Positions 10,270 through 32,149 of a stretch of DNA of 36,227 nucleotides are shown here, piece after piece. The first letter of the stretch is position 1, and every line of letters begins with the position of its first letter. The position numbers and the translations under genes were made by a program. Source of the stretch: Saccoglossus kowalevskii (taxonomy: Eukaryota; Hemichordata; Enteropneusta; Harrimaniidae); contig NW_003123904.1 in assembly GCF_000003605.2 (NCBI RefSeq), positions 82,496-118,722 of the forward strand, given 5' to 3'. The notes beneath the pieces were generated by a model, which was not told the origin of the DNA, ran no database searches, and saw nothing but the letters and a program-made list of their open reading frames with translations.

Positions 10270-10321
10270 ATTATATCACAGTCCCTCTATCATAGATATG
10301 ATAGAGGGACTGTGATTATAT
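10270..10321. mobile_element. Tiny palindromic insertion, copy 1 (38 bp plus 7-bp TSDs)
   Basis: The core at 10277-10314 is a perfect inverted repeat: a 17-bp arm beginning CACAGTCCCTC, a 4-base centre AGAT, and the exact reverse-complement arm ending GAGGGACTGTG. It is flanked by an identical 7-bp direct repeat ATTATAT on each side (10270-10276 and 10315-10321), as expected of a target-site duplication. A second element at 30076-30101 shares the same 11 terminal bases and also has a perfect 7-bp flanking repeat of different sequence. That points to transposition and not a chance hairpin. No coding capacity; the superfamily is unknown. Confidence 0.7.
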
Positions 10322-11188
10322 ATCACAAATCTTTCCATTTTCAAAATAAACTGTTCAATTTGAGAGATATGTGTTTCTAATTGTCGTGTTTTCTGTTCCG
10401 ATTTTATATTCAATAAATTATACAAATTTCCTTGTCTGCTGCTTTTCTTCTGTTGACATTTCAAAGTGATATATGAATTTGAACCTACGAAAATAAATTG
10501 CCATTGGAAATAATTTAGTTTTATTGACTTATATCCCATATATGTAACTATATCTACATGCATCTTAATATAACGTATGTCTATGTTAGTATAGATTTAT
10601 TGCATTTCAAATATTGTATCTATATTTGTTTATATAGAATGTGATATTATTGATTACATTAAATTGGCCATTATCTATTTCTCTACATTTCTTTAAATTA
10701 AAACATGATTTACATATAGATTGTGATCAACTTGCCTGATTGTTATATATTTCACTCAAGAGTAATAATAATTTGTCTCTTTCTTAGATAGGTGACATAT
10801 AGCATTGAAATAGGCATCTTACAGTTAGGTTCCATGGCATTTTACAATGGTTTCCCGTGATAAGGATGTATCCCATTCTCAACATCTCATAGGGCGTGGC
10901 ATAGGGCGAACAAATAGTATATATGATTGTTGTAATAACAAAATCAAATTAAATCAACTAAACACATTCACATTAATTTACTGGGATTTTAAAGACGAAA
11001 TGTACTTTTTATATGTATGTTGAAGATTTAAATCTAAATTCACTGATGATTATATTCTAATGTTAAATCCAACTGAATTTGTTATTAGAAAGTCTACCTA
11101 ACCTGACCGTAATAATTATTGTTCAATTTCTCCCTTATACAGTTTCTACAAACATTATAATAAAGTCGAAATAGGTTCAAGTTTCAGG
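10322..11188. other. No gene recognised
   Basis: Very AT-rich sequence. A 95-codon minus-strand frame beginning at 10563 runs through the palindromic insertion and is not convincing as coding. Confidence 0.5.
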
Positions 11189-11365
11189 ATGACTGAAGAC
11201 TTCCCCAAACGTGGAAAGTGCTACAAGTTTGTTTCTTTCAAATTTAACAAAGGGAAGAGAAGACCGAATCAAACGCAATACACAGGACATCGTTTGAATA
11301 TAGATATTCGTCAAGTTGCGCCACGCAAAGAAACTCACAGAGGAACATTCAATCAACGTATATGA
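11189..11365 (+). CDS. Small ORF, 58 residues, basic, unknown
   Basis: ATG at 11189-11191, stop TGA at 11363-11365. The product starts MTEDFPKRGKCYKFVSF and is strongly basic (FNKGKRRPNQ, then RKETHRGTFNQ), with an even mix of residues unlike the low-complexity frames around it. The ATG follows TTCAAGTTTCAG, which could act as an acceptor, so this may be part of an exon. No domain is recognised. A minus-strand frame covers the same bases, but the plus frame reads more like protein. Short enough to be chance. Confidence 0.2.
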   Translation: MTEDFPKRGKCYKFVSFKFNKGKRRPNQTQYTGHRLNIDIRQVAPRKETHRGTFNQRI

Positions 11366-11466
11366 CATTATTCAATAAACAGGAATATTTGTAGATCTGA
11401 AGCACATATACAAACCACAATATTTTATTATCCAAGTCACAGCATTATGGCATAAAAGATACTTAC

Positions 11467-11571
11467 CTAGAATCAGCATCAACGGTTTTGATATATCATA
11501 TTTAGCCCAAATTTTCAAAATTGTCAAATTGTTGGCTTCGACATAAATAGAATCCATAGGGTTAAGGTATT
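11467..11571 (-). CDS. Possible internal exon, unknown product
   Basis: On the minus strand, an acceptor-like GTATATTAG ends at 11572 and a consensus donor CTAG|GTAAGTATC begins at 11466. The 105 bases between are open in one frame. It contains MDSIYVEANNLTILKIWAKY and runs on to a leucine-rich end at the donor, and it looks protein-like. The acceptor has a poor pyrimidine tract. It lies about 100 bp from the plus-strand small ORF at 11189-11365 on the opposite strand, so the two cannot belong to one transcript. No family recognised. Confidence 0.2.
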
Positions 11572-11742
11572 CTAATATACTTTACTTTATCAGAATCACA
11601 TCATATAAAATATCGATAATATAGCATTGTTTAGTATACATTAAAAATTTGTTGGTATATCTGGCAGACGACGTGATTATATTTTCTAAATGTATCATAA
11701 ATAAAAACAGCCTTTTTTATGTTTTAATTGTTTAATTTTATG

Positions 11743-11903
11743 TTAAAGCGGGGGGGAGTCGTCACCTGTGCATGCGTCAGATGGCCATAGCGTGTCATTG
11801 TTTACAAACAAGCGTAAACCCATGAGCCTTTGCGTTTTTCGCGTGTGTTGTTATCGTCGCTTGGGATTCAACTCCCGCGCAGGTAACTACCCACCCGCTT
11901 TAA
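11743..11903 (-). mobile_element. TTAA-flanked miniature inverted-repeat element, copy 1
   Basis: A 161-bp element bounded by TTAAAGCGGG and CCCGCTTTAA, with imperfect terminal inverted repeats of about 30 bp. It is the reverse complement of the copies at 29492-29656 and 32150-32288, which share blocks along their length. TTAA at both outer edges suggests a TTAA target-site duplication, the habit of piggyBac and Kolobok superfamilies. The termini do not begin with the CCC usual for piggyBac, so Kolobok-like is the better guess. Conserved internal motifs are TGTTTAC (forkhead-like, 11799-11805) and TGTGCATGCGTC (NRF1-like, 11768-11779). No coding capacity; a plus-strand frame across it is a shadow. 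Confidence 0.75.
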
Positions 11904-12117
11904 TACTCGTGATCCAAGCCATTTTCAACGTTTTACAGCAACATTGTCTGTTTGTAGTTAGGTCATTTAACCCATTTGAGAACAGATCCTGAGATTTCAC
12001 AGTGGAGTCAAAAAAATCTTAACAAACAAAGCCCCTCTGATTGGTCTGACTGTTATGGTTAACGAGCCAATTAGACACAATCTTGCAAGTACTTGAATCT
12101 TTATTTTGTAACCGTAT
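11904..12117. other. Spacer, nothing recognised
   Basis: Unique-looking sequence between the miniature element and the promoter-like block. No motif noted. Confidence 0.5.
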
Positions 12118-12750
12118 CCAAGATGGCTGCCCCGTATAGTAAATATCGGTAAATTACTCTCATGTATTTCATAATCACGTGTACATTAGCTGACTGTAAT
12201 AATACTACACTACACTATACTAGAACATCGACCTCAACATTGTATAATCGTCACTACAATACATTTCGGAAAATATCACAAAAGAAAGATAATATATTAT
12301 TTGTTGGTGGTCTATACAAATGAACCCGTGACATCGTCGTGACTACATCACGTAGTACACCAAATAAGGGCAAACGCGTGTGATACGCAAAGTGGGGTCA
12401 TTTACTACCCCATTTGTGCAGGTACGCGCATTAACAAAAGGCTAATTTATTTCTGATATAATGCGCGCTGACAGGCGGGTGATCGAGGCGCCGTGGAAAC
12501 GAATGACTGAAAACACCGGAAGATGTACAATAAATCATCGTGGACAGCTCCATCGTTTTACCGCGGCCTGTGACGTCACATTCCGACAATCACGAACTGC
12601 GCGCGAGTGAAAGCAGTGACGATCGAGGGGGAAAGCCAAGACCGGTTGCTATTGGCTGCGCTGCGTGCATAATAATTCCTGACGTAGTTATACGTCACAC
12701 AGGAGATGGTTTGGTGATAATACTACGCGCACGATGTGATAAGTAACGTC
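12118..12750. promoter_or_regulatory. CpG-rich promoter-like block without an identified gene
   Basis: The block stands out from the AT-rich background by CpG density, especially at 12460-12720. Motifs seen: a near-perfect YY1 site CCAAGATGGCTGCC (12118-12131), an ETS site ACCGGAAG (12515-12522), a perfect CRE TGACGTCA (12571-12578), an inverted CCAAT box ATTGG (12651-12655), and CRE-like TGACGTAG (12680-12687) and TACGTCAC (12691-12698). An imperfect hairpin with TGGGGT and ACCCCA arms lies near 12390-12420. YY1, ETS, CRE and CCAAT together are typical of TATA-less housekeeping promoters. No convincing first coding exon is visible on either side, so the transcript and its direction are unknown. 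Confidence 0.35.
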
Positions 12751-14445
12751 TATTTATAGTTCAGCTGGTTCCTTACTTAATTGGAACCACACCACCTTGT
12801 TTAATTACCTTACCTCTTTTTTTTCTAACCTCATTCAATAAATACTTGTTTATTATCGCGACCTACATCCTGACACGGCCGCGAAGTGATAACCTAACAT
12901 TGCAGCTTACTAGCTGCGTAGCAAGGTTATCTATGATGCTAGACGCCTTGGCTGTGATCAGCTAAAAAAACGATTAACATTATGTGTTGATGAGCTCCAC
13001 AAATATTTGTAATAAATAGACATCTAAACTTGTCATCAGCCATTTTGCCAATGTTGTATATGCCATTCAAAATACGGTCAGAGTGAAACCTGACAAAATT
13101 TGCTTTTGGTCTTTTTTTGAATGCATTGCTTTATATGGTAAAATCATATTTTTCCATCTCGAAGTAAAGAGATGGGTGAGCTTATTTCCTATAAAGTATA
13201 TGTTCAGTTGTGAATTCGATTCGAACGCCCTCATATAAATGGTGTTGTCACGGTGCACTTCGATGTGAATATATGCAGTGCACACATCAATGGTGTTATT
13301 TTCAAAATTTGGTCTTTACGGATTTGTTTCGGCATTTACCTTACGTGGAGTTACTTTTTTGTTTATTTATTGCAAATATATGATACATGTTCACAATAAG
13401 TGAGATAAACACGAGAATTCCATTAACAGATATTCCAAGTCCCCATCTACGGCCGTACTACATCAACACCCAATTCTATTCTAAACACCGTATCGCATTA
13501 GTGTTGAGCAAAGTCCTCCAATCTTTGCGACCCGCCTGCGTGAACAAGGGAGAACACTTCTGAAAGAGTCAAACTCGGGGCACGGATGTGAAGCTGAATG
13601 GAGATGAGTGAATTCGCGATGACAACACGCAATACAATAGTATTCGTTGCTTATAGAGTCATCATTTCATACCGATAATGTGGTAATTGCACAGTGAGTA
13701 TATATACAGTTTGACGTCTGAATCAAATAATATTCTTATTCCCTCAAGGACCAGCCTACTCGCATTCTCAGAAAGGTCGCAATAAAAAAAAGTTCCTGAT
13801 GATAACAAAGAAACTGATACTAAATAAATACTTTCTTCTAAAAAAAAATTATGCTTTTCCGATTTCCTAGAAAGCCTTTTTGTAAAGAATTAAATACCGG
13901 TCTTATTCGTATTTCGTCAGAAAAAGTTACGCGATCAGATTTATAATGATTTATTTTGAATTCAGAATGAATTACTCACGTAAGATTGATGGCGCATGAC
14001 CTTTGGCCACAAAGACGTGTTTCAAATTTGGAACACATATTATTAAAAACAATGTTCGTGATCCAATCACGACTCTATGACTACGATTTTAATAACTACA
14101 AACGCATTACACGAATTTACTGCATTTTGCAAATGGAATTTTTGTGTTGAGAACTACTGTTAAAATATAGTGAATAATTAAGAATACGGTCAAATAAGAA
14201 AGACATGGACTTGGGCAGAATAAATACTAAGATGAAAAACGAACACGAATTGTAACGGAATAGACACTGTGTAATGGGACATGGAGAGGCAAGTCAAAAA
14301 AGAGGGAGCACGTTGGCATCCTGCGAAAGTAGACTGGGGAAGTGAGACATGTTTGAGAGAGGGGGTTATATTGCACTGGACTTGAAATAAGAAAAGCCCG
14401 CAAGTGAAACAGGACAAAATAACAAAAGATGTAAAGATGAGGAGT
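12751..14445. other. No gene recognised
   Basis: AT-rich sequence. A purine-rich plus strand at about 14190-14440 generates two overlapping minus-strand frames with leucine/phenylalanine/serine-rich translations. These run into dispersed repeat copy B and look like repeat-derived sequence, not a gene. Confidence 0.5.
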
Positions 14446-14505
14446 GATGTCAGGTGTTCTGAGAAAAGTGAGCACATTCTGCTCCACATGTGACATCTCT
14501 CATAT
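14446..14505 (-). repeat. Dispersed repeat copy B (bivalve-type, from memory)
   Basis: On the minus strand it reads GATGTCACATGTGGAGCAGA, then ATGTGCTCACTTTTC, then AACACCTGACATCACTCC. It shares its blocks in order with copy A at 6995-7065 but keeps 10-11 extra bases between TGCTCAC and ACCTGACATC, so copy B is nearer to the family form I remember. Minus-strand sequence continuing down to about 14190 may be the degraded remainder of the same element. There it is rich in TTT and CTT, like the T-rich tail I recall. The family assignment is recall only. Confidence 0.5.
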
Positions 14506-14561
14506 ATCTACGTCAAATTTAAAAATCGAAGTCATAGTCTATTCTTACATACGTAACCATG

Positions 14562-14910
14562 TATTTGCATTCTGAACTTAGGTAATTTATGTATTATATT
14601 ATTACATATGTACTGCAGTTTATTTTGATTCGTCCCTGAAATCAAAATCGGTATTTCCACAACCCATATGCAAATGAGGTCTGAGAGCAAACAAAGTAGC
14701 CCCTTCATGAGTACCGTTTTTCGAAATAAACAATATTTAGAAGTGCGATATTTTCCCCTTGGGGTACATGAATATACTTGCCGAGTGAAATTAAATTTGA
14801 ACAACAGTAATGGTAGTTTTAAGCATTCACTTATTTTGAGTCAAACTAATTTGCATATCACCCATGCAATAATGTTTTCGGTATTTTCACGGTCGATATG
14901 CAAATGAACA
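14562..14910. repeat. Octamer-motif cluster with a diverged direct repeat
   Basis: Four exact octamers (ATTTGCAT or its complement ATGCAAAT) lie at 14563-14570, 14668-14675, 14849-14856 and 14898-14905. Two of them sit in a duplicated segment of about 32 bp. CGGTATTTCCAC followed 6 bases later by ATATGCAAATGA starts near 14649; the matching CGGTATTTTCAC ... ATATGCAAATGA starts near 14879. The offset is about 230 bp. The cluster ends 45 bp before the assembly gap, so it may extend into unsequenced DNA. It may be a POU-factor binding cluster or a tandem repeat whose other units fall in the gap. Confidence 0.5.
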
Positions 14911-14950
14911 TGGTATTTCCATTGGCTACCGAACTATTTTTATTTACAAA

Positions 14951-15645
14951 NNNNNNNNNNNNNNNNNNNNNNNNNNNNNNNNNNNNNNNNNNNNNNNNNN
15001 NNNNNNNNNNNNNNNNNNNNNNNNNNNNNNNNNNNNNNNNNNNNNNNNNNNNNNNNNNNNNNNNNNNNNNNNNNNNNNNNNNNNNNNNNNNNNNNNNNNN
15101 NNNNNNNNNNNNNNNNNNNNNNNNNNNNNNNNNNNNNNNNNNNNNNNNNNNNNNNNNNNNNNNNNNNNNNNNNNNNNNNNNNNNNNNNNNNNNNNNNNNN
15201 NNNNNNNNNNNNNNNNNNNNNNNNNNNNNNNNNNNNNNNNNNNNNNNNNNNNNNNNNNNNNNNNNNNNNNNNNNNNNNNNNNNNNNNNNNNNNNNNNNNN
15301 NNNNNNNNNNNNNNNNNNNNNNNNNNNNNNNNNNNNNNNNNNNNNNNNNNNNNNNNNNNNNNNNNNNNNNNNNNNNNNNNNNNNNNNNNNNNNNNNNNNN
15401 NNNNNNNNNNNNNNNNNNNNNNNNNNNNNNNNNNNNNNNNNNNNNNNNNNNNNNNNNNNNNNNNNNNNNNNNNNNNNNNNNNNNNNNNNNNNNNNNNNNN
15501 NNNNNNNNNNNNNNNNNNNNNNNNNNNNNNNNNNNNNNNNNNNNNNNNNNNNNNNNNNNNNNNNNNNNNNNNNNNNNNNNNNNNNNNNNNNNNNNNNNNN
15601 NNNNNNNNNNNNNNNNNNNNNNNNNNNNNNNNNNNNNNNNNNNNN
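14951..15645. other. Assembly gap (N run, 695 positions)
   Basis: The sequence is all N. Long open frames crossing it on both strands are artefacts of the Ns. The true content is unknown; gap size may be an estimate. Confidence 0.99.
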
Positions 15646-18600
15646 AAAATAACTTCCATACGCAACAAAGCCACGGGGAGGGATGGGGTTCTGTCATATT
15701 ATAGTATAGATCGTAGAATATGTAATAACTCGTTTGAATGCTAACCATGTTTACCATGTGGAGATTTAATTCCCTTTTTCTGGATCTCAGTTGAATTAGC
15801 CGGGAGCTCTCTATGTTATATGAGTCATAGAAAGTTCCGGTATTAAAATACTGTGTTTTATATTTGCATTTTGCTCGCAGTAAATGTCAGTATTCCCTGT
15901 CCACTATAAATATGGGATATTTTTATTGACGACCCTTGATGATCGGCTTTATCCGATGATAAGCCGAAGATGTGAAAGTTAAGTATGATTTTAGTGAGAA
16001 GCACCTGGTGAACTAACACATCTATATTAAGTAGACTCGGTCCAATCCCTCGCTTTGGCTGGCAGCATAACAAACAGGAGCACGTCAACTACTACGAGTC
16101 GAGTACTAAGTACAAGGCACAGCCGACTTTTGTGATCTTTTACAAAATAAAATTCAAATAATGTTGTTCCTATTTCGTCCATTCAGTCAGTAATATATGT
16201 TTATTTAGTTCAAGATTGTCAAAGCAGAATATAGAAACATTCATAAAAACTAAGAAACAATCATGGCACTCCAAATGTTAGCTTTTTCAATTTTAACCAC
16301 TACAAGCTGAATTTGTTTTAATATATTTAGAATTGACGTGATACTGTTTACTATTTGATGCAAAACAAACAAGATAAATCACTCTTTTTGACTTTTTAAA
16401 AGGATATATAATGTGTAACATATCCCTGTTTTTCAAGTGTTTGCATTGTAGTAAGGAGTTAAATGTAGTGTGAGACAAAAAGTAACAAAGATATTCGAGA
16501 CACCGTCTCTGCAATAAAGACAACACATGCGTTTTAATTGAACAAAGCGATTAGATGTACATAGGTGCGGATATCAATGTTGATCACTCTCAATTGTGGT
16601 TTGCCTTGTTTAATTCATGATTTAAATGTCGAATGTCCACGCCTAACTATTCGATGGAGTAATTTCCGTTGTTTTATAAGACTGATCAAATGCAAGCAGA
16701 ATATAAATCTATTTACTTTTTCTTAATATCAATGATGATGTCCGTAGCCGTAGAAGCAATACGATTTCCTTACGAGTGCAGATATTGTAATGGGGAAATT
16801 ATTTCGAAAGGGGTTTCATTTTAATTAAAAGTTTAATCGTTCAAGATATCATCTCATTCAGCATGTTGACGTCTCATATCCGCTCTTTGAGATAACAAAC
16901 TGGTAAGTTTGACATTTGACATCTCACTGTCACGGGTTTCACGAAGATGAATGCTGTACACGTGTCTTTAGCGCCTACAATTGAGAGTGTAAATGGCACA
17001 CCGCCGAACCAGTATACATCTGTGTATACATCTGTCAGAATGTATGTATTTTTCTGTGCGCGTGCATAATCCTGAAATATTAGAGTACTGAAGCTAGAAG
17101 TAGTGGTCACTAAAGTCACTTCACTTTGTTTTAGGAGAGTTTTCTAAACTCGATGTCATGAACTGTACAAAATCCAAAGCTATTATGATGCTTACATGAA
17201 TCAGTGAAAGGTTTTCTGGGGGGCAAGGGGGGGGGTAGCTGGTACAGGTTACAGAAAATAAAAAAAGACATTTTTTTACGTTTTTACAGAAAAAAAGTTC
17301 CATTTACAGTAAAAAATAGATTTTTACACTTTACAGATAAAGCAAATTCCTAATTACGTTTTTATATTTGATTATTTGTGTTCAAGAATCAAAATTGGAA
17401 ATTTTGCGTACGATTTACGACATTTAATGTGGAAAATGCTTTATACGCTTACAAAAAATAAGATCTTAAATTATTACAAATTACGGACGAATAAAAATCA
17501 TTTTACACCTTGCCCATGTCTACGAAATTTCGTTTTTTTTATTTATTTAAACTACATTATTACGAAAATAAAAACAATACCCCTTGCCGACCCTCTTTTC
17601 TTTCGATCTTCCAAAGTAGGCATTATGTAAAGCTATTATAGATGGTCACCTATTGAGGTTCATTGATATGTACGATCACAATGTGGTGGATTGTGGTACA
17701 ACTTTAGCATAACTCCCATGCTTGAAAAATCTGATTAAATAACCCAGACAGCTAGTTGATCCTCACGTGCCAAATGTCGTGAAAGTCACATCAAAGTAAA
17801 AAAAGGTGTATGTCAAGACTAATTTAAACGGTGCGTGCATATATTACCAGTTTCATATCAAAATGTGACTTATCATTTATGGAAATTTTACTTAATCTCA
17901 AATTAATTTAATTGAAATGTGTATATAACCATTACGCTAAGTTAAACAATAACACAACAGACATACATGCTAGATATACGTATGATTACTAGTAAGATTC
18001 GTTAACTATTTATTTATCCAGTTAAAATATTATTGTTGTTGATTGAATAGTGGTAGTGTTTAAACGGATACAAAATGATCGGGGCATCCGATTGGTGTGG
18101 TGTCTACATTGAGCACATCACGTTATGGTGAACTTAGAAGTAGGCCTTATCAGGAATTTACGACAAACAGAAGTATCTTGAATGACTTTATCTGTATTAA
18201 TTTTATTGTTTTCCCACAATCATCTGCCTTGCACATGTCACCATTGAAGAATGGCATGAACTTGTGTAACAATGCGTCTGTACTTCTCGATTGTCTCGCT
18301 GGAGTCCGAGAGTGGCGCTCGATCGGGGGAGAGTTGTCACAGACAGAGATTAAAGGTACAACTGAATTAATTTGGTGAATGTAGTTTTTGAAAACGAGAT
18401 AAACGACTTTAATTCACTGTGAAAAAATAATTTCAATAGCACTTCGCAGTTAGTATGAACTGGTTATTTACTTTTTTAAATTGCTAACTTTAAAAGGATG
18501 TTTAAATAAATGTAACTCCTGCACCACTTATTCGATTGTTTTGAATATCTGATTTACAAAATATTATCGCACTATCCATTGGTTCATATGTGTGTGTTGT

Positions 18601-20502
18601 CAACCTATAAATACTTGGTACCACTGTTTGAAACGTGTAGCTGATGTAAGCGTAGGAAATCTATGAAATGAAATGGCAAACACGTAGAAACATCCAGCCT
18701 TATTAGTAGTTGAGTACCGTGCTTGATGACTTATCTATGAATCTATGGAAATGTACCCAATAACAATTTTTTAAAAACAAAAACAAAACAAAAATATACT
18801 GGTCCATAGAAAATGTAATTTGATTCATGTTTCAAATAGTATTCAAATAAAATAAAATGAATTTTATAAATGTGCATTAAAATGCATATAAACACGGGAG
18901 TACGTTCGCTAAATAGAACAGCCTAAGATAGACACGCTGAACGGAACAGCTCATCTTCGGCGCACTTGATGAAATACAACCCGATGTAACATTGATGTAT
19001 GCATACTAAACTGGTAGTTGACTGTATAGAGTTTTTAACTGCGACCATCAATCATAATGTCCTACTTCAAGAACCAGCAGTCTGCTAATGGCACATTTTA
19101 TTAACTTACGTATTAAATAGCTTCCAACATTTGTCACAAATCAATCGAATCCACTCCCATAATTCAATGCGAACATCACCATCACGGTAACATAGATAAA
19201 CCGTTAACTCACATCCTCTACATAAAACCATGGGATGGGGTCAACTTATAAAAAGGGGTGGGCGCGAGCCCGCTAATTAATTGTGATTAATTGTGAATTG
19301 TAAAACGAAGTTACTGTATAATTTACAACCGCGAACGAGGTTGTCTTCTTTCTCAATGATGTAAACTGCCCTTTGTGGTCTACCTTTTTGTTGATTCTGT
19401 AAAAGTGTCTATTTAGACTGCTCAAGAGTGAGTGAATATTTAGATTGTCTAACCATCCATCGTCGTCAGTACGCATAGAGAGTTCAATACATTCAGTAAT
19501 TGCCGTGGTTTGCTTGAATTCTCACTTCCCCTCGGGGTCAAATCATGTTATACTGTTGCTTTAATTTCCACTGAGTGGCGATCTGATTTGTAACACACAT
19601 AGCATACATGTACTGTGTTGTGAACGCTGAAAATCGTCAAATTAAAATCCTACGCTCGCCCTGGCAGTGTATAAACACGTGTGAATACTTAGTAAACGCA
19701 CAATGTGTTCTATGCTGTCCAACAATATTTTTTTCGTGGATATTTTCGATCAACCATAGCTGGCATCTTTTCGCTTCATAACACAGTGTGCATTACGTTT
19801 CTGACTAAGTTTACTCTACTCTACAGATGTTATACAAACCTACTCAAACCTATGAACGTAAAATTCCATTTGTGTCGCTTTTCATATTTTTTCCCACATT
19901 TTGATTAAAACCTGTAGGTAGTAGAAAATCATGTTCATTTATTTCAAAATTAACAATGAAATTTCGGACATACATTTGCATACAAATGTCGCATCAACAT
20001 TTTGCCGGGAAACAATATGACCGCGTTGTTCAGCTTCCGTGGTCCATAAAAAAATATCTTCGCGCTTCGGGCAAGTGTCATACCACACTTCTCATATCTG
20101 TCGTTAATGTTTCCTTTGCTTTTTGTCCATAATTAACACCTGTTTCCATAATTGGAACTGAAGATAAAACGGCGCTAAATTGTTCAATCTTGGAAGCCAA
20201 TTTTGACACTGTGCCTGCTGGGAGAGTTAATTTAGTTTATTTCTTAATTCGTTTTTTTTTTCAGTTCATTAGTGAATAGATCTGCTAACATGCAATTATC
20301 TTCCTTCTAACTTGAACTTGATATTTGAATTACCGTCTTACATCTCTCGTTAATGATAATATATCACTTTCCATGGATGTGTTTATGTTTAAGGTCAAAT
20401 TAGAATATTAATTGACTCTATATTTAGTTAAACCCCGCTTTCCATTTTTAGAATGCTCGTTTCTAATGCTGCCATCAAAGTTGTATACAACGCGTCGTGA
20501 AG
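15646..20502. other. Long stretch with no recognisable gene
   Basis: Frames are short and unconvincing. Minor features: a 12-bp tandem duplication GTATACATCTGT near 17012-17035, and G runs at 17218-17223 and 17227-17235. The AT-rich segment from there to about 17610 ends in CCCCTTGCCG, a weak hint of an old inverted-repeat element. A hairpin ACATTTG CATA CAAATGT lies at 19972-19989. A plus-strand frame at 18097-18378 ends near a donor-like AAAG|GTAC but lacks a good acceptor. Confidence 0.5.
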
Positions 20503-21309
20503 AGTACATGGCGGTATGATACGATAAGGGTGGTACCGTATGTACGGAGTGGTATAGCGCGTACAGGGTGGTGTCGCGCGTACAGGGCGATGTGGCGCGT
20601 ACAGTGTAGTGTGGCGCGTACAGTGTGGTGTGGCGATCGGTGTGGCGCGTACAGTGTGGTGTGGCGCGTACAGTGTGGTGTGGCGATCGGTGTGGCGCGT
20701 ACAGTGTGGTGTGGCGCGTACAGGGCGATGTGGCGCGTACCGTGTAGTGTGGCGCGTACAGTGTGGTGTTGCGATCGGTGTGGCGCGTACAGTGTGGTGT
20801 GGCGCGTACAGTGTGGTGTGGCGATCGGTGTGGCGCGTGCAGTGTGGTGTGGCGCGTACAGTGTGGTGTGGCGATCGGTGTGGCGCGTACAGTGTAGTGT
20901 GGCGCGTACAGTGTGGTGTGGCGATCGGTGTGGCGCGTACAGTGTGGTGTGGTGCGTACAGTGTGGTGTGGCGATCGGTGTGGCGCGTACAGTGTGGTGT
21001 GGCGCGTACAGGGCGATGTGGCGCGTACCGTGTAGTGTGGCGCGTACAGTGTGGTGTTGCGATCGGTGTGGCGCGTACAGTGTGGTGTGGCGCGTACAGT
21101 GTGGTGTGGCGATCGGTGTGGCGCGTGCAGTGTGGTGTGGCGCGTACAGTGTGGTGTGGCGATCGGTGTGGCGCGTACAGTGTAGTGTGGCGCGTACAGT
21201 GTGGTGTGGCGATCGGTGTGGCGCGTACAGTGTGGTGTGGCGCGTAGTGTGGTATGGTGCGTACAGCGTGGTGTGACGCGTACATGGTGGTGTGGCGCGT
21301 ACAGGGTGG
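20503..21309. repeat. CpG-rich hierarchical minisatellite (19-bp base, 50-bp unit, 288-bp super-unit)
   Basis: The base unit is 19 bp (TGTGGCGCGTACAGTGTGG and variants). Two base units plus a 12-bp derivative TGTGGCGATCGG make a 50-bp unit. Ends of GCGATCGG fall at 20640, 20690, 20778, 20828, 20878, 20928, 20978, 21066, 21116, 21166 and 21216, so spacings are 50, 88, 50, 50, 50, 50, 88, 50, 50, 50. The 88 and four 50s form a 288-bp super-unit present nearly twice, with the same private variants (GGGCGATG, ACCGTGTAGT, GTGTTGCGATCGG, GCGTGCAG) in the same order. Both edges decay into single 19-bp units. Three long open frames across it arise because the repeat lacks stops in those frames; the translation (CTRHTTLYAPHRSPHH-like) is not a credible protein. 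Confidence 0.95.
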
Positions 21310-21396
21310 AATAAATAAATACATAAATAAATCGGATTACAAGTTTATGTTGGTATAGGCTTCATCCCGTTTTAGTTCATGTGTTTTATTTGCCAG

Positions 21397-21791
21397 AACA
21401 GCAAGAAACAGAAAATGGGAAAGGGGTCTACCCTGTTACGCCGATTATCTTGAAAACTAATATATGTCACCCCAACGCATACGACATATACAATTTAAAA
21501 TTAATCCTCAGCTCAATTCGTAAGAGGATTTGTCGATATAAAACTACGCATTTAAAGAAGAGTTCGACACGTTCCATGAATCATAACCGTTCAAGCCATG
21601 TTAGTTCAAACAGTGGAAGATTTCTTGGAATTATTGTCCTAAAGGTCGACACATGTCACGAGTATACTGTTTATTTACAGTGGACTCATACTATATCAAA
21701 TGATTGTCAAAAACACGGAAAGTCCACCAAAATAAACACAAACAATGTTTTTATCAGAAATGTGAGCGATACATGGAAAAATACAAATTGA
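21397..21791 (+). CDS. Candidate exon or chance ORF, unknown product
   Basis: The longest open frame in gap-free, non-repetitive sequence: about 136 codons from 21381 to the stop before 21792, with no ATG at its start. GTTTTATTTGCCAG ending at 21396 is a good acceptor, after which the frame reads EQQETENGKGVYPVTPIILK. Two internal stretches resemble each other (PIILKTNICHPNAYDIYN and GIIVLKVDTCHEYTVYLQ), hinting at an internal duplication. A run this long is expected by chance about 0.3 times in such a window by my rough estimate. Residue use becomes asparagine/serine/threonine-rich toward the end. It begins just after the minisatellite. No family recognised. Confidence 0.2.
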
Positions 21792-22076
21792 ACAAATTAT
21801 ATAAGGTGATACTTGATGCGTGACGGTCAAATGCAGCTGTGACGTAATTAGTTTTTGTCACAATAAAAGTGACCACTTACCTCACAATTACATCATCGCG
21901 TGACTCGTGGCCAGTGTTCAACATCAGCAACACCGGAAGTTCTCGAACCTATTCTCAAGGCAATCGATTAATACCGATACAACGAAGAAACTGCATAAAC
22001 GTATTGCCTGTATGATTACGTCGAGAGATTAAATTAGACCAGACAAAATGACGTCATCGTGACGTGTCATCATTAC

Positions 22077-22270
22077 AATGGAATGGAATAGTCGGATTTC
22101 CCGATCCGTAACAGTAGGTCGCAACAATGACTCCGAACGGTTCACCAGTTCGGGGGTTATCCCGTAATATGCTCAAGGCAGCACAGTTATAACAAGCTGT
22201 GGCACCGTTACCGAATGACCCGCGCAGGGAATCTCCAAGACAGGTGCTGTCAAAACGATAGCGCATTGAA
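22077..22270 (-). CDS. Candidate internal exon, glycine/cysteine-containing, unknown
   Basis: Within a 106-codon minus-strand frame (22054-22374), GCTTTCTGTCAG is a fair acceptor ending at 22271 and ATT|GTAATG is a possible donor with its GT at 22076-22075. The 194 bases between read in one frame through LGDSLRGSFGNGATACYNC and then RTGEPFGVIVATYCYGSG. About half of the bases are G+C and many codons start with G, which contrasts with the flanks and is what coding DNA usually shows. Four cysteines and several glycines suggest an extracellular domain, but I cannot name one. About 200 bp downstream on the same strand, another strong donor (GAG|GTAAGT, 21881-21875) has no open frame leading into it. 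Confidence 0.28.
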
Positions 22271-22374
22271 CTGACAGAAAGCGATGGTTCACCTCTTGAG
22301 TATCTCTCCAGAAGCGAAGTTGTCTTTTTTTTCAGATGGAAGTTAAAAATGAGATGAAAGTAAATGGACAGCAA

Positions 22375-24817
22375 TCACTTAGGTGCTTATTTTTAGCAAA
22401 ACGGTAAAAAAGTAGAATATAATTCGAATGAATCTGTGCATATCAAATTATGTTATTCGGTCTTTTAAGCAATAAAAGCCATCGCCGGCCATGTGATATG
22501 TTCATTCTATCAATGAGTGAAAAGTCCCATTTAAAAAATTGATGATCCAGCGGTTACTGTTTATTAAATTGTTCAAGAACACGCGCATTTTGAAAAGAAC
22601 ACGTTTTCTGAAAGTAGATATATGCCGTTGTCAATTATTTAGTATATAATTATGACTTTTCATAAATCTTATTCGCATCCCATTTGTAGATTGAAGTTAT
22701 TTTCTAGACCAGATCTTTTTTTTAAGACCAGACGCCACGCTGTCTCCTACAAAATCGATGGTTTAAAATATTATATAATCTGATATAGCGACCACCAGCC
22801 AAGTAGAATATGCCTGGATTATGTAAAAGGCTGCATACTCAACGTGACATGGTGACCTCGAACAAGTCAAGACAGCCAATCGAATACTGTAAATCTTCGC
22901 TGGAATGTATATGTTTCCATCTTTCATCGCATTTTAACAATATTACCAGTAAGTAGGATTTAGTTGACAATCCTTACTACTCTCTATGTCACCGATTTGA
23001 GAAGACGCGTAACGTTTGTTTGGGTTTATTGTCAATATTTTAGTAAGTCACTAAAGTTACACTTAGTTTTATTGGGATTTTGAGACTATTATGCGTGCAA
23101 AATGGTGTCATAAATATGTTTGAATTACGGGAAATATTTTGAGGATTCGTCATGATTCGCTTCTGATCCGAAAATTACAATTGCTGCGGGAAAATTTTTG
23201 TGAATCCACACGCATGAGACCACTACATGAACCAATCAGTATGCAGAACCGATCGCCAACACTTAAACATGTTGAAAATCATTGTAAATTGAATATTAAG
23301 TAAACATTCCCCACAATTTGTGCAGCACAATAAATATAATAATAATAACAATCTCAGGACCCCGATAAAATGTCGGGAAAAATTTCAGACTGAATATTTA
23401 AAACAATCCACGGAAAGAGAATGGCAACTTCATTTCTACAAAACGTCAAACAATCACCTTAACATTATAATTATAATTATGAACGAGTTATTTGTTTGTA
23501 AAGGTGTCCGAAAGAAGGAAATGCACATCACCTTTTTATGCGCATTTTTTGAATTGTGATATTTTGTTTATATACTGAGTATAAGTGTTTTTCAAAGTCA
23601 ATCAATGACGTTCGTATTCTGATTATGTTCAAACCTAAAATTACTCCACCGCGCGTTTTTATACGTATTTAGCCCTGTCAATGTAAATCATCATCTATTT
23701 TACAAGATTATACAATTATGCAAATAAGTTATGATTATCTGATTTAGCCAATAAGCTGTATAGTCGTGGATAAAAAAAAATAGCTCATCCACGGTTACTA
23801 GAAGAAAAATCATTTATGTAAATAGGATGAAAGTATACAACAGTGGTATTGCTTTTCAGAACTAAATTATGGTAATATAAAAATAAATAAAATGTTAATT
23901 TCCAAAGTAGTTAAGTGTACTGCGAAGTGTGCTATGATCTCTCAAATATTGCTTCATTTCATCAATTTATATATATCAGATCGAAACATCAATTAGTTAT
24001 CTGAGTTGCGCTGACAACGGTTAATTAGTATGTAAATTGATCTAATCACGGATCTGTACCTGGAATGGTTCAATCTTTTACTTGTCATCACATGACATAT
24101 GTGATAACTGATTATAATATGCACTGAGTGACAGTCTCATTTAAGGTCATTAGAGTTAATTAAAAGAACTATGAATGATGATATCACTGTTCATATATTA
24201 TATGCTTTTTAGTAAAAGTATTAATTTATGTCGTTTTCCACGACATCGGTTGTACTTAGCGGATTTGGATGACGAGTACATTCGGAAACTGTCGCCATTC
24301 AATTATCCAAATTTGTTTACCACATTATGAATTGTAGTTTTCTCGGGAACTTGGCTAGCTTTATCGAAGTGACCACAAACGAACGTGTTTTTTTTCCATC
24401 ACTGATATCTTGCAAGATGAGATAGCGGCTGGTTTCAAATGACTGATGAATATATAATTTTACAGGGATACCCAAATTTTTGATATAGGAATTTATTTTA
24501 TTTTGCTTATAAATGAAGTACTTACAATACATTACATTACAATAATGTTCTTCCCACAATGCAGCTCGTATTCTCGTGAGAATGGCGTAACCTACAATCA
24601 AACTGCGCGTTCTAAAGCGCAGCTGTTCGGTTATCCAATCAGCTTTCAGTATTACTTATTTGGTGTTCCGGGTTGGATGACGGTAACGTCTATATGGGAT
24701 AGGAAAATTACAGGCCGCCGTCAGTTGTTGCAGACTCCTTTGATTCCCAATATTTGGTTGTCCAGACAGAGTGTGCTATAGTTTATAAGCCGAGTGAGCG
24801 TCAGCTCAGGTGATAGA
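22375..24817. other. No firm gene; CpG-richer patch at 24600-24790
   Basis: Mostly AT-rich sequence. TGACGTCA at 22049-22056 lies just upstream of this stretch. The patch at 24600-24790 carries CCAAT in both reading senses and a CTGCGC/GCGCAG inverted repeat, and is overlapped by frames on both strands. A minus-strand frame (24317-24601) contains a consensus donor TATT|GTAAGTACTT, but no acceptor or family supports it. Confidence 0.4.
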
Positions 24818-24832
24818 CCCCCCCCCCCCCCC
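24818..24832 (+). repeat. Homopolymer C15
   Basis: Fifteen consecutive C. Length in the assembly may be inaccurate. A comparable G12 run lies at 26844-26855. Confidence 0.9.
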
Positions 24833-25768
24833 ATCGTGATGTGAGACGACGGATTTAAACAATGACATCACACCTGGGCCCCGGGCATACGTGTATTGAA
24901 ACAACGGGCTAGGTAACGAGACAGCTGCGGGCGCAACTTCTTTAAATAAATAATCAATAAAACAAACAAATTATACTTCACTCCACGTTGTTTTATTTTC
25001 AGCCATTTTTAAATATATATACAAACACATTACATTCCTGGACAATGTAACAATAAGAGCCATACACATAAATGTACTAGTCTAAGAATTTCTGCATAGT
25101 AACCAGGGTCTTTCAGATGTCAATATCAAATACCAATACATTTCCGGAAAGTTTGCTATAGACGTACCTGTGTCATTAAATTTCTACGAGTCAAGATTTT
25201 TTGGAAAATTACCTCCTTTTTTTAAATGTTTATCAATTTTACCTGTTCTGTCTGCAATCTCAGACTAGTGAGCTGCAATGTAGTATTCAACTTGAAGTTA
25301 TTTTTTAACCGTTTGTGCGTATTTCGGGAAATTTGCAAAACGCGTTTTTCTAATAACCTTTTAGCAACAAATTTACAAAAAATTAACATTTGTGACAATT
25401 AAGAGTAGTGGGACTATATACTCAACTACATTTATCGGAGAAAAATTGGCAACATTTTTTACACTTGCAGAAAAGTTCTCATATTATACAGTAAAACTAC
25501 ATTTGGGTTTTGGTGGATTCATTTAAAGCATGGCATAAAAGGATTCCATTGGAATTCTCTTAGCTTAATGTCAATTGTTAATTTGAATGGAACGCGGTAA
25601 AACTCTTTCCAAACATGAATTTTCGTCTTTAAGGTAATTTCAAAATCAGTTCTGAGTGTGGTGGCATAACCTTACTTTTATTATACATCTATAAATATCA
25701 TATGATTCATTCATAACATGTAAGTAAACAGGAATAATATAATATCAGTACTTTGTTTCCACTCGCAG
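24833..25768. other. No gene recognised
   Basis: AT-rich sequence without repeat structure or convincing frames. Confidence 0.5.
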
Positions 25769-25891
25769 TTTTGTTGTACAGTACTAGCCGAGAAAGTACA
25801 AGACCAAGTCATTGCAGAAAAGCATGCCGAAGAACACCAAGATTGTGTTCCATGGCAAAAATTTACGTGCTTCATCAAACATAAAACCAAT
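25769..25891 (+). CDS. Candidate internal exon, charged, unknown
   Basis: The stop-free frame here has no usable start codon. TTTCCACTCGCAG ends at 25768 as a reasonable acceptor and AAT|GTAAAT gives a possible donor at 25892. Between them the frame reads VLAEKVQDQVIAEKHAEEHQ, then DCVPWQKFTCFIKHKT. Twelve of the 21 codons from GCC to GTT begin with G, a periodicity typical of real coding sequence. The first half could form a charged helix. The frame stays open beyond the donor to about 25957 but becomes lysine/serine/asparagine-rich. No family recognised; a decayed exon is equally possible. Confidence 0.28.
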
Positions 25892-25957
25892 GTAAATGAA
25901 TCCAACTTTTATGATTTGTCAAAAAAAAAATCCACCAACTTCGCACCGTTTTACCGT

Positions 25958-26310
25958 TAGGATTGCCGTACATACCAGTGCTTACAACTTGAACACGCTT
26001 ATCCGGTCTTCAGACGGTTGAGGTGAACGCTAGAGGTCGCTAGTCACATTGAGTTTTTTTTACTCAACCCAACACAGAATAATGTACTGGCGTATATTAT
26101 ATTATTCTGAAAACTCAATTATCCCAGAAAGGTTTTAATGATAATATTTAACGATTGGTTCTGTTTGGGAGCGCTTTGTATGAATATCCGGGCTCATAGT
26201 GTTCCGTTTACAGCAACAAATTTAAAACGAGACATGCATGCAAACTACCGTGACGTAACTCGTTATGTAGATTTATTTCCTATCTATGTGCATCTCTGTC
26301 ATCGTTTATT
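25958..26310. other. No gene recognised
   Basis: Contains a small hairpin TTGAGT/ACTCAA near 26050 and TGACGTAA at 26251-26258. CCGTTTACAG near 26204 resembles the terminal motif of the neighbouring element. Confidence 0.45.
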
Positions 26311-26710
26311 GCTGCGTTTACACGACATCATTTTATCGGAGCCCTTCGGCTAGAGCCAAGAACGGCTCCAATAAACCGACCGGGCCGAAATCACGGCTCT
26401 GAATCGACTTCTCTTTTCATTTATGATGGAGACAACATAGTTTGTAATCTATCTTAGCTCAACAGCATAATACACTGACATGCATCGTGCTATGTAAAGA
26501 AACAACAAAACAAGCACGACACAAAAGACGTTTTCAGCCATATTGTTTTTATAAGTTACGTTCGGCTCTGAACTAACTTGATTGAATTCGGCTAATCTCG
26601 GCTCTCGTTCGGCCCGACCATGTAAACGCATTGAAGATAATTTCCTGTTAATCGGTGCAAAGAACAGTTGTTCGGCTCCGATATATAGAATGCTATCGTG
26701 TAAACGTAGC
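26311..26710. mobile_element. Terminal-inverted-repeat element, about 400 bp, non-autonomous
   Basis: The left end GCTGCGTTTACACGACATCA (26311 onward) continues into ATCGGAGCC. The reverse complement of the right end, GCTACGTTTACACGATAGCA, likewise continues into TATCGGAGCC, so the terminal repeats span about 33-37 bp with few mismatches. Subterminal CGGCTC/GAGCCG motifs are dense on both sides, and a longer inner inverted match joins CCGACCGGGCCGAA (26377-26390) and TTCGGCCCGACC (26608-26619). A second GCGTTTACA copy, inverted, lies inside at 26621-26629, so the element may be compound. No clean target-site duplication is visible. It has no transposase. Dense subterminal motifs suggest a hAT-like relative, which is inference. 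Confidence 0.65.
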
Positions 26711-27460
26711 ATTTGATTAGACTCTATTGCAGAAATAGTAGCGGCACCCTATATGATATGGTAGCAAAATGTCCACATCGTGTTTTGCAACAACTTCGAT
26801 GCACATACGTTTATTGCTATCCCGGGGAAGGTTTTGGTGAATTGGGGGGGGGGGGCATCAAACTGCAAAACCACGATTGAATTCCTTCGGCAGAGCTACG
26901 ATGTTACAGTCAAACAGATTCAAAGGTGACGACACAATTTGATCTTCAGAAGGTGCACTTTTAACACCGGTTGTCGAACAAAGACACATACATTCAACGA
27001 TGTAACAACACAATTATTCATGGTAAAAATCAAAGCACGTGTATTGCCCCATAGCCCCCACTGAGCTGTGTATGATGGGAGTTGTTTAGACCAAAGACAC
27101 TAGAAAATATAAACTTGTTTTTTGGTTCTTTTTTTGTGCGGTAACCCGACTTTCGCAGTAACTCCACTTTCGCCATTTATACACCCCCATAACATTATTA
27201 TATTTCATTGAGAAAACAACAACAAATAAATAAGGTACTGTATGCATGGATGTACTAAGATGTGTATGCAAGTCTACTTATACCAACTACAAATTTGTCC
27301 TATTAGATCTACGTCATACAGACACGTGACACACACGAACACGTTATCACGTGCTCTAGCGAGACAAACGTGGCCACTGATATATGTTAAAAAAATATAT
27401 AAAAGTTTCGTGTATTCAGGAGATAAAACCGTGCCGCAAATATCAAACACAACGTTAACG
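26711..27460. other. No gene recognised
   Basis: Contains a G12 run at 26844-26855 and E-boxes at 27036-27041, 27323-27328 and 27348-27353. Frames are short. Confidence 0.45.
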
Positions 27461-27581
27461 CGCCATGACGATCATGGCGACTTAAGGTACATATACTTCA
27501 ATGTGCTGAGATGTTGTTCACTTCCTGGTTTGAAATTCGGCATTTCTGTCATCAAGCAGTAGATAAATTAAATTTCAAACC
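27461..27581. repeat. Two small perfect inverted repeats
   Basis: CGCCATGA CGA TCATGGCG (27461-27479) has 8-bp arms and a 3-base centre. GGTTTGAAATT (27527-27537) pairs perfectly with AATTTCAAACC (27571-27581), and CTTCC and GGAAG blocks lie further out. The second pair may be the core of a small fold-back element. No flanking duplication was found. Confidence 0.6.
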
Positions 27582-28460
27582 AAGTCACCGGGAAGCCAAG
27601 TCAAGGACAAGTTCAATCTGTTCTTATTTTTGGTTTGCTGGTGTGCGTTCATGTGTATGACCTTTATATTGCCAATAATTATATCAGACATGTTACAGTA
27701 CTATCCACTTACACTTACACACCGAGAGAGTGGGTGTCAGTGATTCCATCTCACCGTAACTATGCCGATGATGAGTGGTTGATGAAAGGTATGCAGTGTT
27801 TCGACTCCAAACACCGAAAGTACCATACACTGTTAAAGACTATATTGTGATCGCGTTGTTCCAATTTGCTGGGGTGTGTGGTCGCGATACCCCATCCAAA
27901 TGAATAAAAAAAAATGGGAATATACAGAAACACATTGATAGACTGTTAAACTGGTTCCAGTGTATTTCATTGAGACTGTCTATTCCGATTTTTTTCAATG
28001 AAATCCACTAGACCCTGTACCGTGATCAAAGACGAGATAACATAGCAGTAAGCCAGCGAGTTCGTCTACAGAAAACATTGAGATCACTCAGCGAACCGGC
28101 AAATGGACCGCACCCAGATTTGGTTGCCGATCTTAATCTTGTAAATTAAAAACCTAAACTTCGGTTAATCAATTGGGCTGGAATGACGATTTTATCTTTG
28201 GTCAGCGAAGCGAAAGACTGTTCAGTCGAGCATGAAATAAATATAGAGTCGACATGGATGGATTGACTGGGACTCACTTAGAAGTCATAATTTCAATCAA
28301 AAAGACGTTCCAGAACACGGTATCATTCTACCTCCCACACACATCATCCACTTATGGGTAGTAGACAAAAAATCATTACATTTTGCTGCTAAGTAAGTCT
28401 AGTTAGTACACGAATATATTCGGGTGTACGTTATAGATAGATTGCATACTTCTAGAAAAA
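27582..28460. other. No gene recognised
   Basis: Unique-looking AT-rich sequence with a 71-codon frame at 27635-27850 that has no domain or splice support. Confidence 0.4.
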
Positions 28461-28825
28461 GTTAAGAATTGAAAATGACGAATCACAGTTTGAGTTGAGA
28501 ATTACAGATGAAGTTTAGAGTTAAAGGTGGAATTAAGAATTACAGTTACGTATTAGAGATGAAGATAAGAGTGATCAATTAAGTTGAGAATTAAAAATGG
28601 AGTTCATAATTAATGATTGGGGTCAAAGGACACTGACAGATAGATTTGTGGAGTTACGGATTACAAAATAAGTTGAGAAATCATAATGATGGAGTTGTAA
28701 ATCACCGACAGATAGAGTTGAGAAGTACAGATAGAGTTGAGAAGTACAGATAGAGTTGAGAAGTACAGATAGAGTTGAGAAGTACAGATGGAGTTATGAA
28801 TTACAAAATAAGTTGAGAACTAAAG
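28461..28825. repeat. Minisatellite, 19-bp unit, four exact copies in a decayed array
   Basis: GATAGAGTTGAGAAGTACA is repeated exactly at 28711-28729, 28730-28748, 28749-28767 and 28768-28786, then once with changes at 28787-28805. Diverged units of the same type (GAGTTGAGAATTACAGATG) extend left to about 28461 and right to about 28825. The exact core inside decayed flanks indicates recent expansion within an old array. Confidence 0.9.
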
Positions 28826-28885
28826 TGACAGACCCGTATTTGTTGGCATAATTTATCCTGTATATGAGAACTATTTAAGGGAGTT

Positions 28886-28923
28886 CTATGTCACCACGGT
28901 AACCGTAATGACACGTGACATAG
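28886..28923. repeat. Inverted repeat with inner palindrome
   Basis: CTATGTCAC (28886-28894) pairs with GTGACATAG (28915-28923). Inside lies the odd palindrome ACGGTAACCGT (28896-28906). The right arm overlaps an E-box CACGTG at 28912-28917. The two symmetries are not concentric, so this is either a small decayed fold-back element or a cluster of palindromic binding sites. Confidence 0.6.
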
Positions 28924-29491
28924 TATCTCAGAGTACGTCTTCAAATCGTGTGCCTATCTGTTATGTTCGTTGGGTATGACGTAATCATTAGAATAATTCT
29001 CCTGGCGTTCATTTGACAATACCTAATTTAGGCAGATAAATGGAATTTGCCTTATGTGCACCCTGTATGTCGTTGCGTGGATTGGCTTGGAACGAGCCTA
29101 AAATTTGCTGACGTAATCAGACAGATCATCACGTGACCTGCATATATGCTGTCCTTCATAATAAAATAACGTTGACAGTTGACTTGAGTACTCGTATTAT
29201 GTATTAATAAATCTGCTATGTTCAGATTGGCCCACTATTTTTTTTTGTATGATTTTTTTTTATTTTCACACAAAATAAAAATATACAGTAACAAAATCAT
29301 ACATACACAAAAAAAAACTGAAACTAAAACAAGAATGAGATGTGGGCTAATGTGGTGTTTTCTATTTTGTAACCTTCAAAGCCAGCTGTCATGTTTTGTT
29401 TATACTATTCCAATAGCCAAAAAGAAATTATTGGCCCACTAATAGTAACTTACATGCTCAGCTGCTAACTCACACCACTCACTGTGTGCCA
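28924..29491. other. No gene recognised
   Basis: TGACGTAA occurs twice (28977-28984 and 29109-29116), and an E-box lies at 29130-29135. A T-rich and A-rich low-complexity patch lies at 29236-29330. Confidence 0.45.
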
Positions 29492-29656
29492 TTAAAGCGA
29501 GAGGGTCGTCACCTGCCCACGAGCGGGGATTGAGTTCCAAGCGACGATAACAACACACGCTAAGAACGCAAAGGCTCATGGGTTGTCGCTTGTTTGTAAA
29601 CAATGACACATTATGGCTATCTGACGCATGCGCAGGTGACGACTCCCCCGCTTTAA
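29492..29656 (+). mobile_element. TTAA-flanked miniature inverted-repeat element, copy 2
   Basis: A 165-bp copy in the opposite orientation to copy 1, running from TTAAAGCGAGAGGGTCGTCA to GTGACGACTCCCCCGCTTTAA's TTAA edge. It keeps GTAAACA (29596-29602, forkhead-like) and GACGCATGCGCA (29623-29634, NRF1-like). Its left arm has diverged (CCCACGAGCGG where copy 3 has GCGCACGCGCG). A minus-strand frame starting at 29920 ends inside it and is incidental. Confidence 0.8.
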
Positions 29657-30068
29657 AACGATAGTGTCGTCATAATTGTACATGTGCACATGATGGGACT
29701 CGCACAAATCAATGTTTACATAATACATTGTGTTTTGATAGAAGCACAGTCCATCTATCACCGGTCCAGAAACGGCTATTGTTCTAGGTGTTAAAAGGCA
29801 GTAGTTGTCGCGCCGTGCACGTGCGACATTTGTGTTGATAAACATTGATTTTCCCACAATCCAATGCGCTCTTCTTATGGAAATCACAAGTATGAGTTTT
29901 GCCCTGGACGCCACTTGCACTGATCACCGCCAGCGACTCCTTCAATACCTTCCAATCACCGAAACAAAATGCTAATTAAAGCTTAGTAACCTCTCAGATT
30001 GTACATGGACGTACAATGATTTGTACTCGTTGGTGTGCGCAATAGACAAAATCGCCATCTTTGTTTAT
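29657..30068. other. No gene recognised
   Basis: CpG-richer than average, with an E-box at 29818-29823 and a small inverted repeat ATTGTAC/GTACAAT near 30000-30018. Confidence 0.4.
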
Positions 30069-30108
30069 ATGAGACCACAGTCCCTCCCTTGAGGGACTGT
30101 GATGAGAC
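30069..30108. mobile_element. Tiny palindromic insertion, copy 2 (26 bp plus 7-bp TSDs)
   Basis: The core at 30076-30101 is CACAGTCCCTC, then CCTT, then the exact reverse complement GAGGGACTGTG. It is flanked by the direct repeat ATGAGAC at 30069-30075 and 30102-30108, identical 7 of 7. It shares its 11 terminal bases with copy 1 at 10277-10314 but lacks the next 6 bp of each arm. There is practically nothing between the inverted ends, making this about as short as an inverted-repeat insertion can be. Confidence 0.7.
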
Positions 30109-31909: not shown

Positions 31910-32149
31910 GTATTACACCTTTAAAAGTGGGTAATATTCAAAGGAATTCAAATAGGGGTGACAGGCGCCTTAGAGGTGTATGCTTGCACACATTCTCCTT
32001 CCCAGAGTTCCTTGCGGTTAGATCACCGAAAGCATCTCTGCCAGCACACACCGCCATTTTGTGCTTAAACGTCACAAGACGTTTATTACGTCTATCCTTG
32101 CCGATTTGTGTTTGTTATTAGGGGCCTTCGTGTCGATTTCTTTTTACTG
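31910..32149. other. GC-richer segment, no gene recognised
   Basis: A 71-codon frame beginning at 31906 overlaps the stop of the preceding candidate exon in another frame and has no family support. If 31752-31909 is a terminal exon, this would be 3' untranslated sequence; no AATAAA was seen before the next element. Confidence 0.35.

Follow-up and report, generated by a model that had tools for sequence, protein, structure and literature searches.

Short palindromes in Saccoglossus kowalevskii as probable excision scars of a P-superfamily-like transposon

The P element is distinguished from other characterized cut-and-paste transposons by the unusual 17-nt stagger of its cut (PMC7776569). Cleavage by its transposase falls exactly at the element boundary for the 3′ end, but 17 bp further in on the other strand (PMC7776569), and after excision the donor ends carry 17-nt 3′ overhangs (PMC2895639). 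The footprints described in Drosophila, which come from a laboratory assay, consist of the target-site duplication and at most 17 nt of each end placed face to face, joined bluntly, through a short overlap or with 1–15 nt of filler, some of it templated (PMC2895639). Templated insertions have also been described at the same kind of break (PMC5466332). Here, we analyzed a 36,227-nt stretch of the genome of the hemichordate Saccoglossus kowalevskii (572 Mb, 4,830 contigs), corresponding to positions 82496–118722 of contig C1645 and hereafter called the window. It has a GC content of 0.36 and a CpG observed/expected ratio of 1.06, and it contains two short palindromes, each bordered by a 7-bp direct repeat. 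We conclude that these palindromes are very probably end-joined excision scars of a P-superfamily-like cut-and-paste transposon.

The two palindromes (table 1) have the ends CACAGTCCCTC...GAGGGACTGTG in common, and at both the longest exact flanking direct repeat is 7 bp. Direct reading bore out the positions, the shared ends and the perfect 7-bp duplications given by a first-pass annotation of this DNA. The same annotation had described both centers as 4 bases long, which holds for site 2 (11+4+11) and for site 1 when it is read as 17+4+17; equivalently, site 1 pairs over 18 bases around a 2-base center (GA). We scanned the window for inverted arms at least 8 bases long, with arm starts less than 3 kb apart and an exact flanking repeat of 6–10 bp, and recovered both palindromes and one 2,244-bp pair. 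With spacers of at most 40 bases and repeats of 6–9 bp, only the two palindromes were retained; 200 dinucleotide shuffles gave five matches in total and never more than one per shuffle. Over 142,862 non-N bases comprising the window and its surroundings, only the two palindromes and one further family copy were found outside AT microsatellites. The neighboring copy (C1645:49480–49502), 23 bp long and 33 kb to the left of the window, is flanked by the duplication ATTAGGC. A separate A/T-rich inverted repeat lies between copies of CAGAAAA at positions 17259–17286 of the window; it may have arisen by chance or represent a decayed scar from a different family, the shuffled mean for this type of repeat being 0.03 per window.

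Table 1. Coordinates in the window of the two palindromes, their flanking duplications and a parent-like element end
Feature	Position	Strand	Description
Left target-site duplication, site 1	10270..10276	.	ATTATAT, 7 bp
Candidate scar 1	10277..10314	.	38 bp: terminal 17 nt CACAGTCCCTCTATCAT, 4 joining bases, same 17 nt reversed
Right duplication copy, site 1	10315..10321	.	ATTATAT
Left target-site duplication, site 2	30069..30075	.	ATGAGAC, 7 bp
Candidate scar 2	30076..30101	.	26 bp: 11 terminal nt of each end, 4 bases between
Right duplication copy, site 2	30102..30108	.	ATGAGAC
Parent-like element end	29745..29794	+	17-nt terminus CACAGTCCATCTATCAC, then CGGTCCAGAAACGGCTATTGTTCTAGGTGTTAA; aligns with parent ends elsewhere

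The paired-end pattern CACAGTCCCTC-N0..30-GAGGGACTGTG, scanned in the S. kowalevskii genome, gave 318 matches on each strand with 0–30 bases between the arms; the pattern is its own reverse complement, and at least one site (on C310) is counted twice in this figure. Eleven matches have 31–61 bases between the arms, and the reversed control pattern gave none in either spacing range. We read 52 copies with their flanks, namely all 49 distinct places among the matches listed, the two window sites and the neighboring copy. At 47 of them, the flanks form a 7-bp duplication with no more than one mismatch; it is exact at 38, reaching 9 bp at one of these. The left-flank 7-mers are all different (52/52). 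The first-pass annotation had taken the palindromes for insertions that should recur in the assembly between 7-bp duplications. The 318 matches and the duplications at many other genomic copies agree with this view. The bodies, by which we mean the sequences between the duplications, are distinct in 45 of the 52 copies, and 44 of them do not exceed 34 bp, in our reading because two tails of at most 17 nt would have been joined.

Many bodies resemble joins of two copies of the 17-nt end; others are trimmed, share a 2-base overlap or carry filler. Blunt 17+17 joins are illustrated by CACAGTCCCTCTATCAC abutting GTGATAGAGGGACTGTG and by CACAGTCCCTCAACACC abutting GGTGTTGAGGGACTGTG. When the 52 copies are classified with four 17-nt tails picked from the same data, 19 junctions are blunt, 5 overlapping, 21 have 1–5 inserted bases and 7 have more; since the tails were defined from these data, the classes, which are crude, constitute a description and not an independent test. 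The full 17 nt are kept on at least one side in 27 copies and on both sides in 5. In a few copies, for example L059 and L048, the filler repeats the tail itself, which suggests polymerase-theta-like joining. Three one-sided scars (L093, L096 and L105) are 21 bp long and combine 17 nt of one end with 4 nt of the other between exact 7-bp duplications. They cannot be elements, because no second inverted end remains. Among the 11 wider-spacing matches, 5 were read: L081 and L085 have exact duplications, L084 has one mismatch, L083 two and L082 four. L085 (C1346:213943–214001, 59 bp, duplication GTAGAAC) has kept one end over more than 40 nt and the other over about 12 nt. As more than 17 nt of one end are present, it reflects an internal deletion or partial gap repair and not a simple tail-to-tail join.

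The boundary at base 17 is apparent from the comparison with resident copies of the family. The family ends consist of CACAGTCCCTC followed by TATCAY or AACACC, forming 17-bp inverted ends in two subfamilies, and full-length copies would be bounded by CACAGTCCC...GGGACTGTG. The 17-mer CACAGTCCCTCAACACC is present at 53+58 places in the genome. Twenty-nine occurrences were read in 27 loci: 19 belong to scars, 9 to element ends and 1 is unclear. Places were taken in list order, with C3429 added out of order and with the omission of known scars (C361, C370, C594 and C686), of the head-to-head pair C1050:54794/54811 and of the contig-end-adjacent C843:241. Because of these omissions, scars are under-counted in this sample. 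At the scar occurrences, base 18 is G in nine, T in seven, A in three and C in none (n = 19, two being both ends of one scar; scar L103 is included although its duplication has one mismatch and its far end is poor, and the site present in both L088 and L089 is represented by L088 alone). At the resident element ends, base 18 is C in eight and G in one (n = 9), a bias that is partly built in, as these ends were recognized from the pentamer that follows the 17-mer (CGGTT or GAACG). The point of the comparison is that sequences without a nearby duplication have one common continuation, whereas those with a duplication do not. Resident ends continue with CGGTTRGGAAACG... and most go on to TTGTTCTAAGGTGT; AACACC-subfamily scars end by base 17, where resident copies run on. 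The one intact paired copy read (L094, C3429:78150–78316) is 167 bp long, has 17-bp inverted ends and is flanked by the duplication CCATAAC. It is not palindromic beyond 17 bp.

Judging from its alignment, a remnant of the parent element is probably still present in the window at position 29745 (table 1). Its terminus CACAGTCCATCTATCAC has two mismatches to the scar-1 tail, an equally good match being obtained in 3 of 500 shuffles. The following 36 bases align to a resident end with a score of 25, which was reached in none of 20,000 shuffles and by 5 of 19,604 random window pieces, pieces overlapping the 29745 site not being separated out. BLAST at an E value of 0.05 did not report this alignment, and neither a partner end nor a duplication was found for the 29745 end. 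Similarly, no credible partner end was found for the unpaired ends at C1645:134113, 165036, 112240 and 44982. Together with the two scars, the alignment indicates that the window has two places that the family left and, probably, one remnant. From about position 29792 onward, the 29745 end adjoins a dispersed repeat starting near TT(T/A)AAAGG. This repeat recurs at positions 564–710 of L084 and at about C1645:238344–238441, and is perhaps a nested insertion at TTAA.

We propose that, at each site, a transposon with 17-bp inverted ends would have inserted and created a 7-bp target duplication. Later, the transposase would have removed it with a staggered cut, one strand being cleaved at the element edge and the other 17 nt further in, so that both broken chromosome ends kept 17-nt single-stranded tails of element sequence, which we infer to be 3′ tails. 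The tails would then have been sealed face to face by end joining, accompanied by trimming, short overlaps or a small filler. In the expected product, the two duplications enclose up to 17 nt of one end, filler, and up to 17 nt of the other end in reverse orientation. The Drosophila P{wa} junctions offer a direct comparison (PMC2895639, Table 1; n = 66): both duplications were kept in 44, the outer arms were at least 11 nt long in 35, arms of at least 11 nt were combined with a center of at most 4 in 27, and 26–38 bp separated the duplications in 30. The commonest all-stem product was 14+2+14, with 14 isolates (PMC2895639). Set against this table, both window sites would be ordinary rows.

On the basis of the 17-nt cut, the inverted ends and the 7-bp duplication, the family probably belongs to the P superfamily. 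The duplications of this superfamily measure 7 or 8 bp, and those observed here are 7 bp long. Its transposases are characterized by a THAP DNA-binding domain, a split RNase H fold and a GTP-binding insertion. The first-pass annotation had listed duplication lengths by superfamily and left out P, which has 7-bp members. The 17-bp ends of L094 are terminal inverted repeats (IRs), and the base-17 stop of the AACACC subfamily together with the length cap points to a 17-nt staggered cut. The Drosophila P element as described differs by its 31-bp ends starting with CATGATG and its 8-bp duplication, compared with 17-bp ends starting with CACAGTCCCTC... and 7 bp here; moreover, the present scars are natural genomic ones. 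Galileo, another member of the P superfamily, has duplications of 7 or 8 bp (PMC4168063; PMC2775673). In its consensus, GTANTAC, positions 2 and 6 are T and A (PMC4168063; PMC2775673; PMC3573991; PMC3688188), the bases also preferred at these positions here (0.67 each). Members of the superfamily prefer a palindromic target motif that reaches beyond the duplication; over 47 sites, T/A amounts to 0.67–0.69 at duplication positions 2 and 6 and at the third base beyond the duplication on either side, a symmetry imposed by averaging the two strands. Galileo differs by its very long, foldback-like inverted ends, as opposed to 17 bp. Dada elements generate 6- to 7-bp duplications, but the described families lack terminal IRs and target small RNA genes (PMC3706591). 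They are rejected here because of the inverted ends of L094; in the window, ARAGORN detected no tRNA and no Rfam family was found at the gathering score. Kyakuja (KDZ) shares the 7-bp duplication and has CA..TG ends, but no inverted ends (PMC12730594), and is rejected on the same grounds. hAT7 elements also have a 7-bp duplication, and 17-nt scars are not described for hAT7 or Kyakuja in the available part of PMC12730594.

Several observations weigh against the interpretation of the palindromes as P-like excision scars. Scar 1 alone, with its 18-bp pairing, fits an 18-nt tail equally well, and scar 2 requires symmetric trimming to 11+11. Five of the 52 copies have no good duplication (2–6 mismatches). 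Eight exceed 34 bp, the longest measuring 47 bp, and the length cap is also broken by L081 (60 bp) and L085 (59 bp), with exact duplications, and by L084, with one mismatch. Of 12 ends with an intact TATCAT 17-mer, 9 continue with an A, which we read as filler copied from the tail; a longer tail in the TATCAT subfamily would also fit. Several resident parents were read for the AACACC subfamily only, TATCAY being represented by the single resident end at 29745. In six-frame translations of the window (17 of 18 pieces, the minus-strand piece 15648–25652 being excluded), no Pfam domain scored above the cut-off. Finally, the P{wa} flies lacked Rad51 (PMC2895639), and their mix of joining events may differ from that of a wild germline.

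Numerous copies with common ends and 7-bp duplications would also be expected of ultra-short miniature inverted-repeat transposable elements (MITEs), made of two inverted ends and moved by a transposase acting in trans. The first-pass annotation had considered such mini-elements, mobilized as such, and we regard them as very unlikely. Most copies have their own arm length and center, 45 of 52 bodies being distinct, and because these vary, the copies do not derive from one element. A mobile element would leave the cap near 2 × 17 bp unexplained, and the three 21-bp copies hold only 4 nt of a second end. Furthermore, 26 bp is too short for bending into a paired-end complex. The P transposase itself relies on internal binding sites (PMC7776569). 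The annotation's other suggestion, a hairpin-insertion mechanism not yet described, is not supported in view of the variable arms and centers, the length cap, the stop at base 17 and the one-sided copies. Alternatively, the palindromes could be excision scars left by a transposase of another superfamily, such as a 7-bp hAT or a Kyakuja-type enzyme, that independently makes a 17-nt staggered cut. To our knowledge, hAT excision leaves no long element tails. Fungal hAT families, like Kyakuja, do have 7-bp duplications (PMC12730594), but the lack of inverted ends in Kyakuja and the 17-nt stagger that distinguishes P make this origin improbable.

Palindromes are prone to deletion, and L085 is a partly deleted copy. 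Resident foldback-like transposons might have become shorter in situ, with the center of the palindrome deleted during replication and short all-stem palindromes left behind. We consider this highly improbable: independent deletions would not halt at base 17 and would not yield one-sided 21-bp remnants with intact duplications. Moreover, L094, the sole complete resident copy read, has no palindrome past its 17-bp ends, and for the spacings searched, the count drops from 318 to 11. Chance hairpins or quasi-palindromes produced by template switching are, in turn, practically negligible as an explanation. Short palindromes are common in AT-rich DNA, but 318 matches have the same 11-nt ends against none for the reversed control, and the 7-bp duplications found at 47 of the 52 copies are absent from the three prokaryotic loci showing the same pattern. 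Excision of a P-like transposon followed by end joining remains by far the most probable origin of the palindromes.

A known mechanism explains these palindromes, and what makes them interesting is the size of the archive, no new kind of element being involved. A concrete mechanism takes the place of what had looked like a novel class of mini-transposons. The 318 matches with exact 11-nt ends correspond to hundreds of scars, and to more if decayed and one-sided copies are included. We give an even chance to the idea that this genome represents a fossil record of germline double-strand-break repair. Since every scar would have begun as the same break, with two 17-nt 3′ tails, the spectrum of junctions should reveal the end-joining pathway naturally used by the species. 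The scar set would provide naturally occurring end-joining outcomes for a single defined kind of break, outside laboratory flies. Scars also appear to be more numerous than resident copies: in the 17-mer sample described above, where scars are under-counted, 19 scar ends stand against 9 resident ends. If so, excision without restoration from the sister would have been a frequent fate. If our interpretation is correct, short palindromes with matching flanks in other genomes could be footprints of transposases with long staggered cuts.

Outside S. kowalevskii, the paired pattern gave no match in viral contigs; the 16-mer occurs in two of them, with no second end in the 180 bases around each. The three prokaryotic loci belong to one Kaiserbacteria metagenome-assembled genome (MAG) and, for two of them, to one other MAG. 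The latter two lie on separate contigs (L004, positions 4626–4649; L005, positions 3787–3810), where a 24-bp palindrome with the same 11-nt arms (CACAGTCCCTCATGAGGGACTGTG) occurs in near-identical flanks. It is bordered by CATG on either side, lacks a 7-bp duplication and is probably a bacterial repeat matching by chance. Searching literature text for the 11-mer ends gave no transposon title among the matches listed, and those listed for very short MITEs mostly concerned arachnids and materials science. Printed accounts of such scar archives did not turn up among the titles and opening lines of abstracts from general literature searches, none of which was aimed at them.

Other repeats were observed in the window. 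Two copies of a short inverted-repeat element, TTAAAGCG(G/A)GAGGGTCGTCAC...GTGACGACTCCCCCGCTTTAA, with TTAA at the ends, occupy positions 29490–29658 and 32149–32290, and look like a MITE family of the TTAA-target kind. A run of 695 N at positions 14951–15645 is either an assembly gap or a withheld stretch, and the neighboring 200 kb of the scaffold contain seven more long N runs. A tandem array, GTGTGGCGCGTACAGTGTGGTGTGGCGATCGG..., extends over positions 20549–21309 with periods of 19, 50, 238 and 288 bp. Several of its reading frames are open, and the 2-kb bin in which it lies has a GC skew of 0.23.

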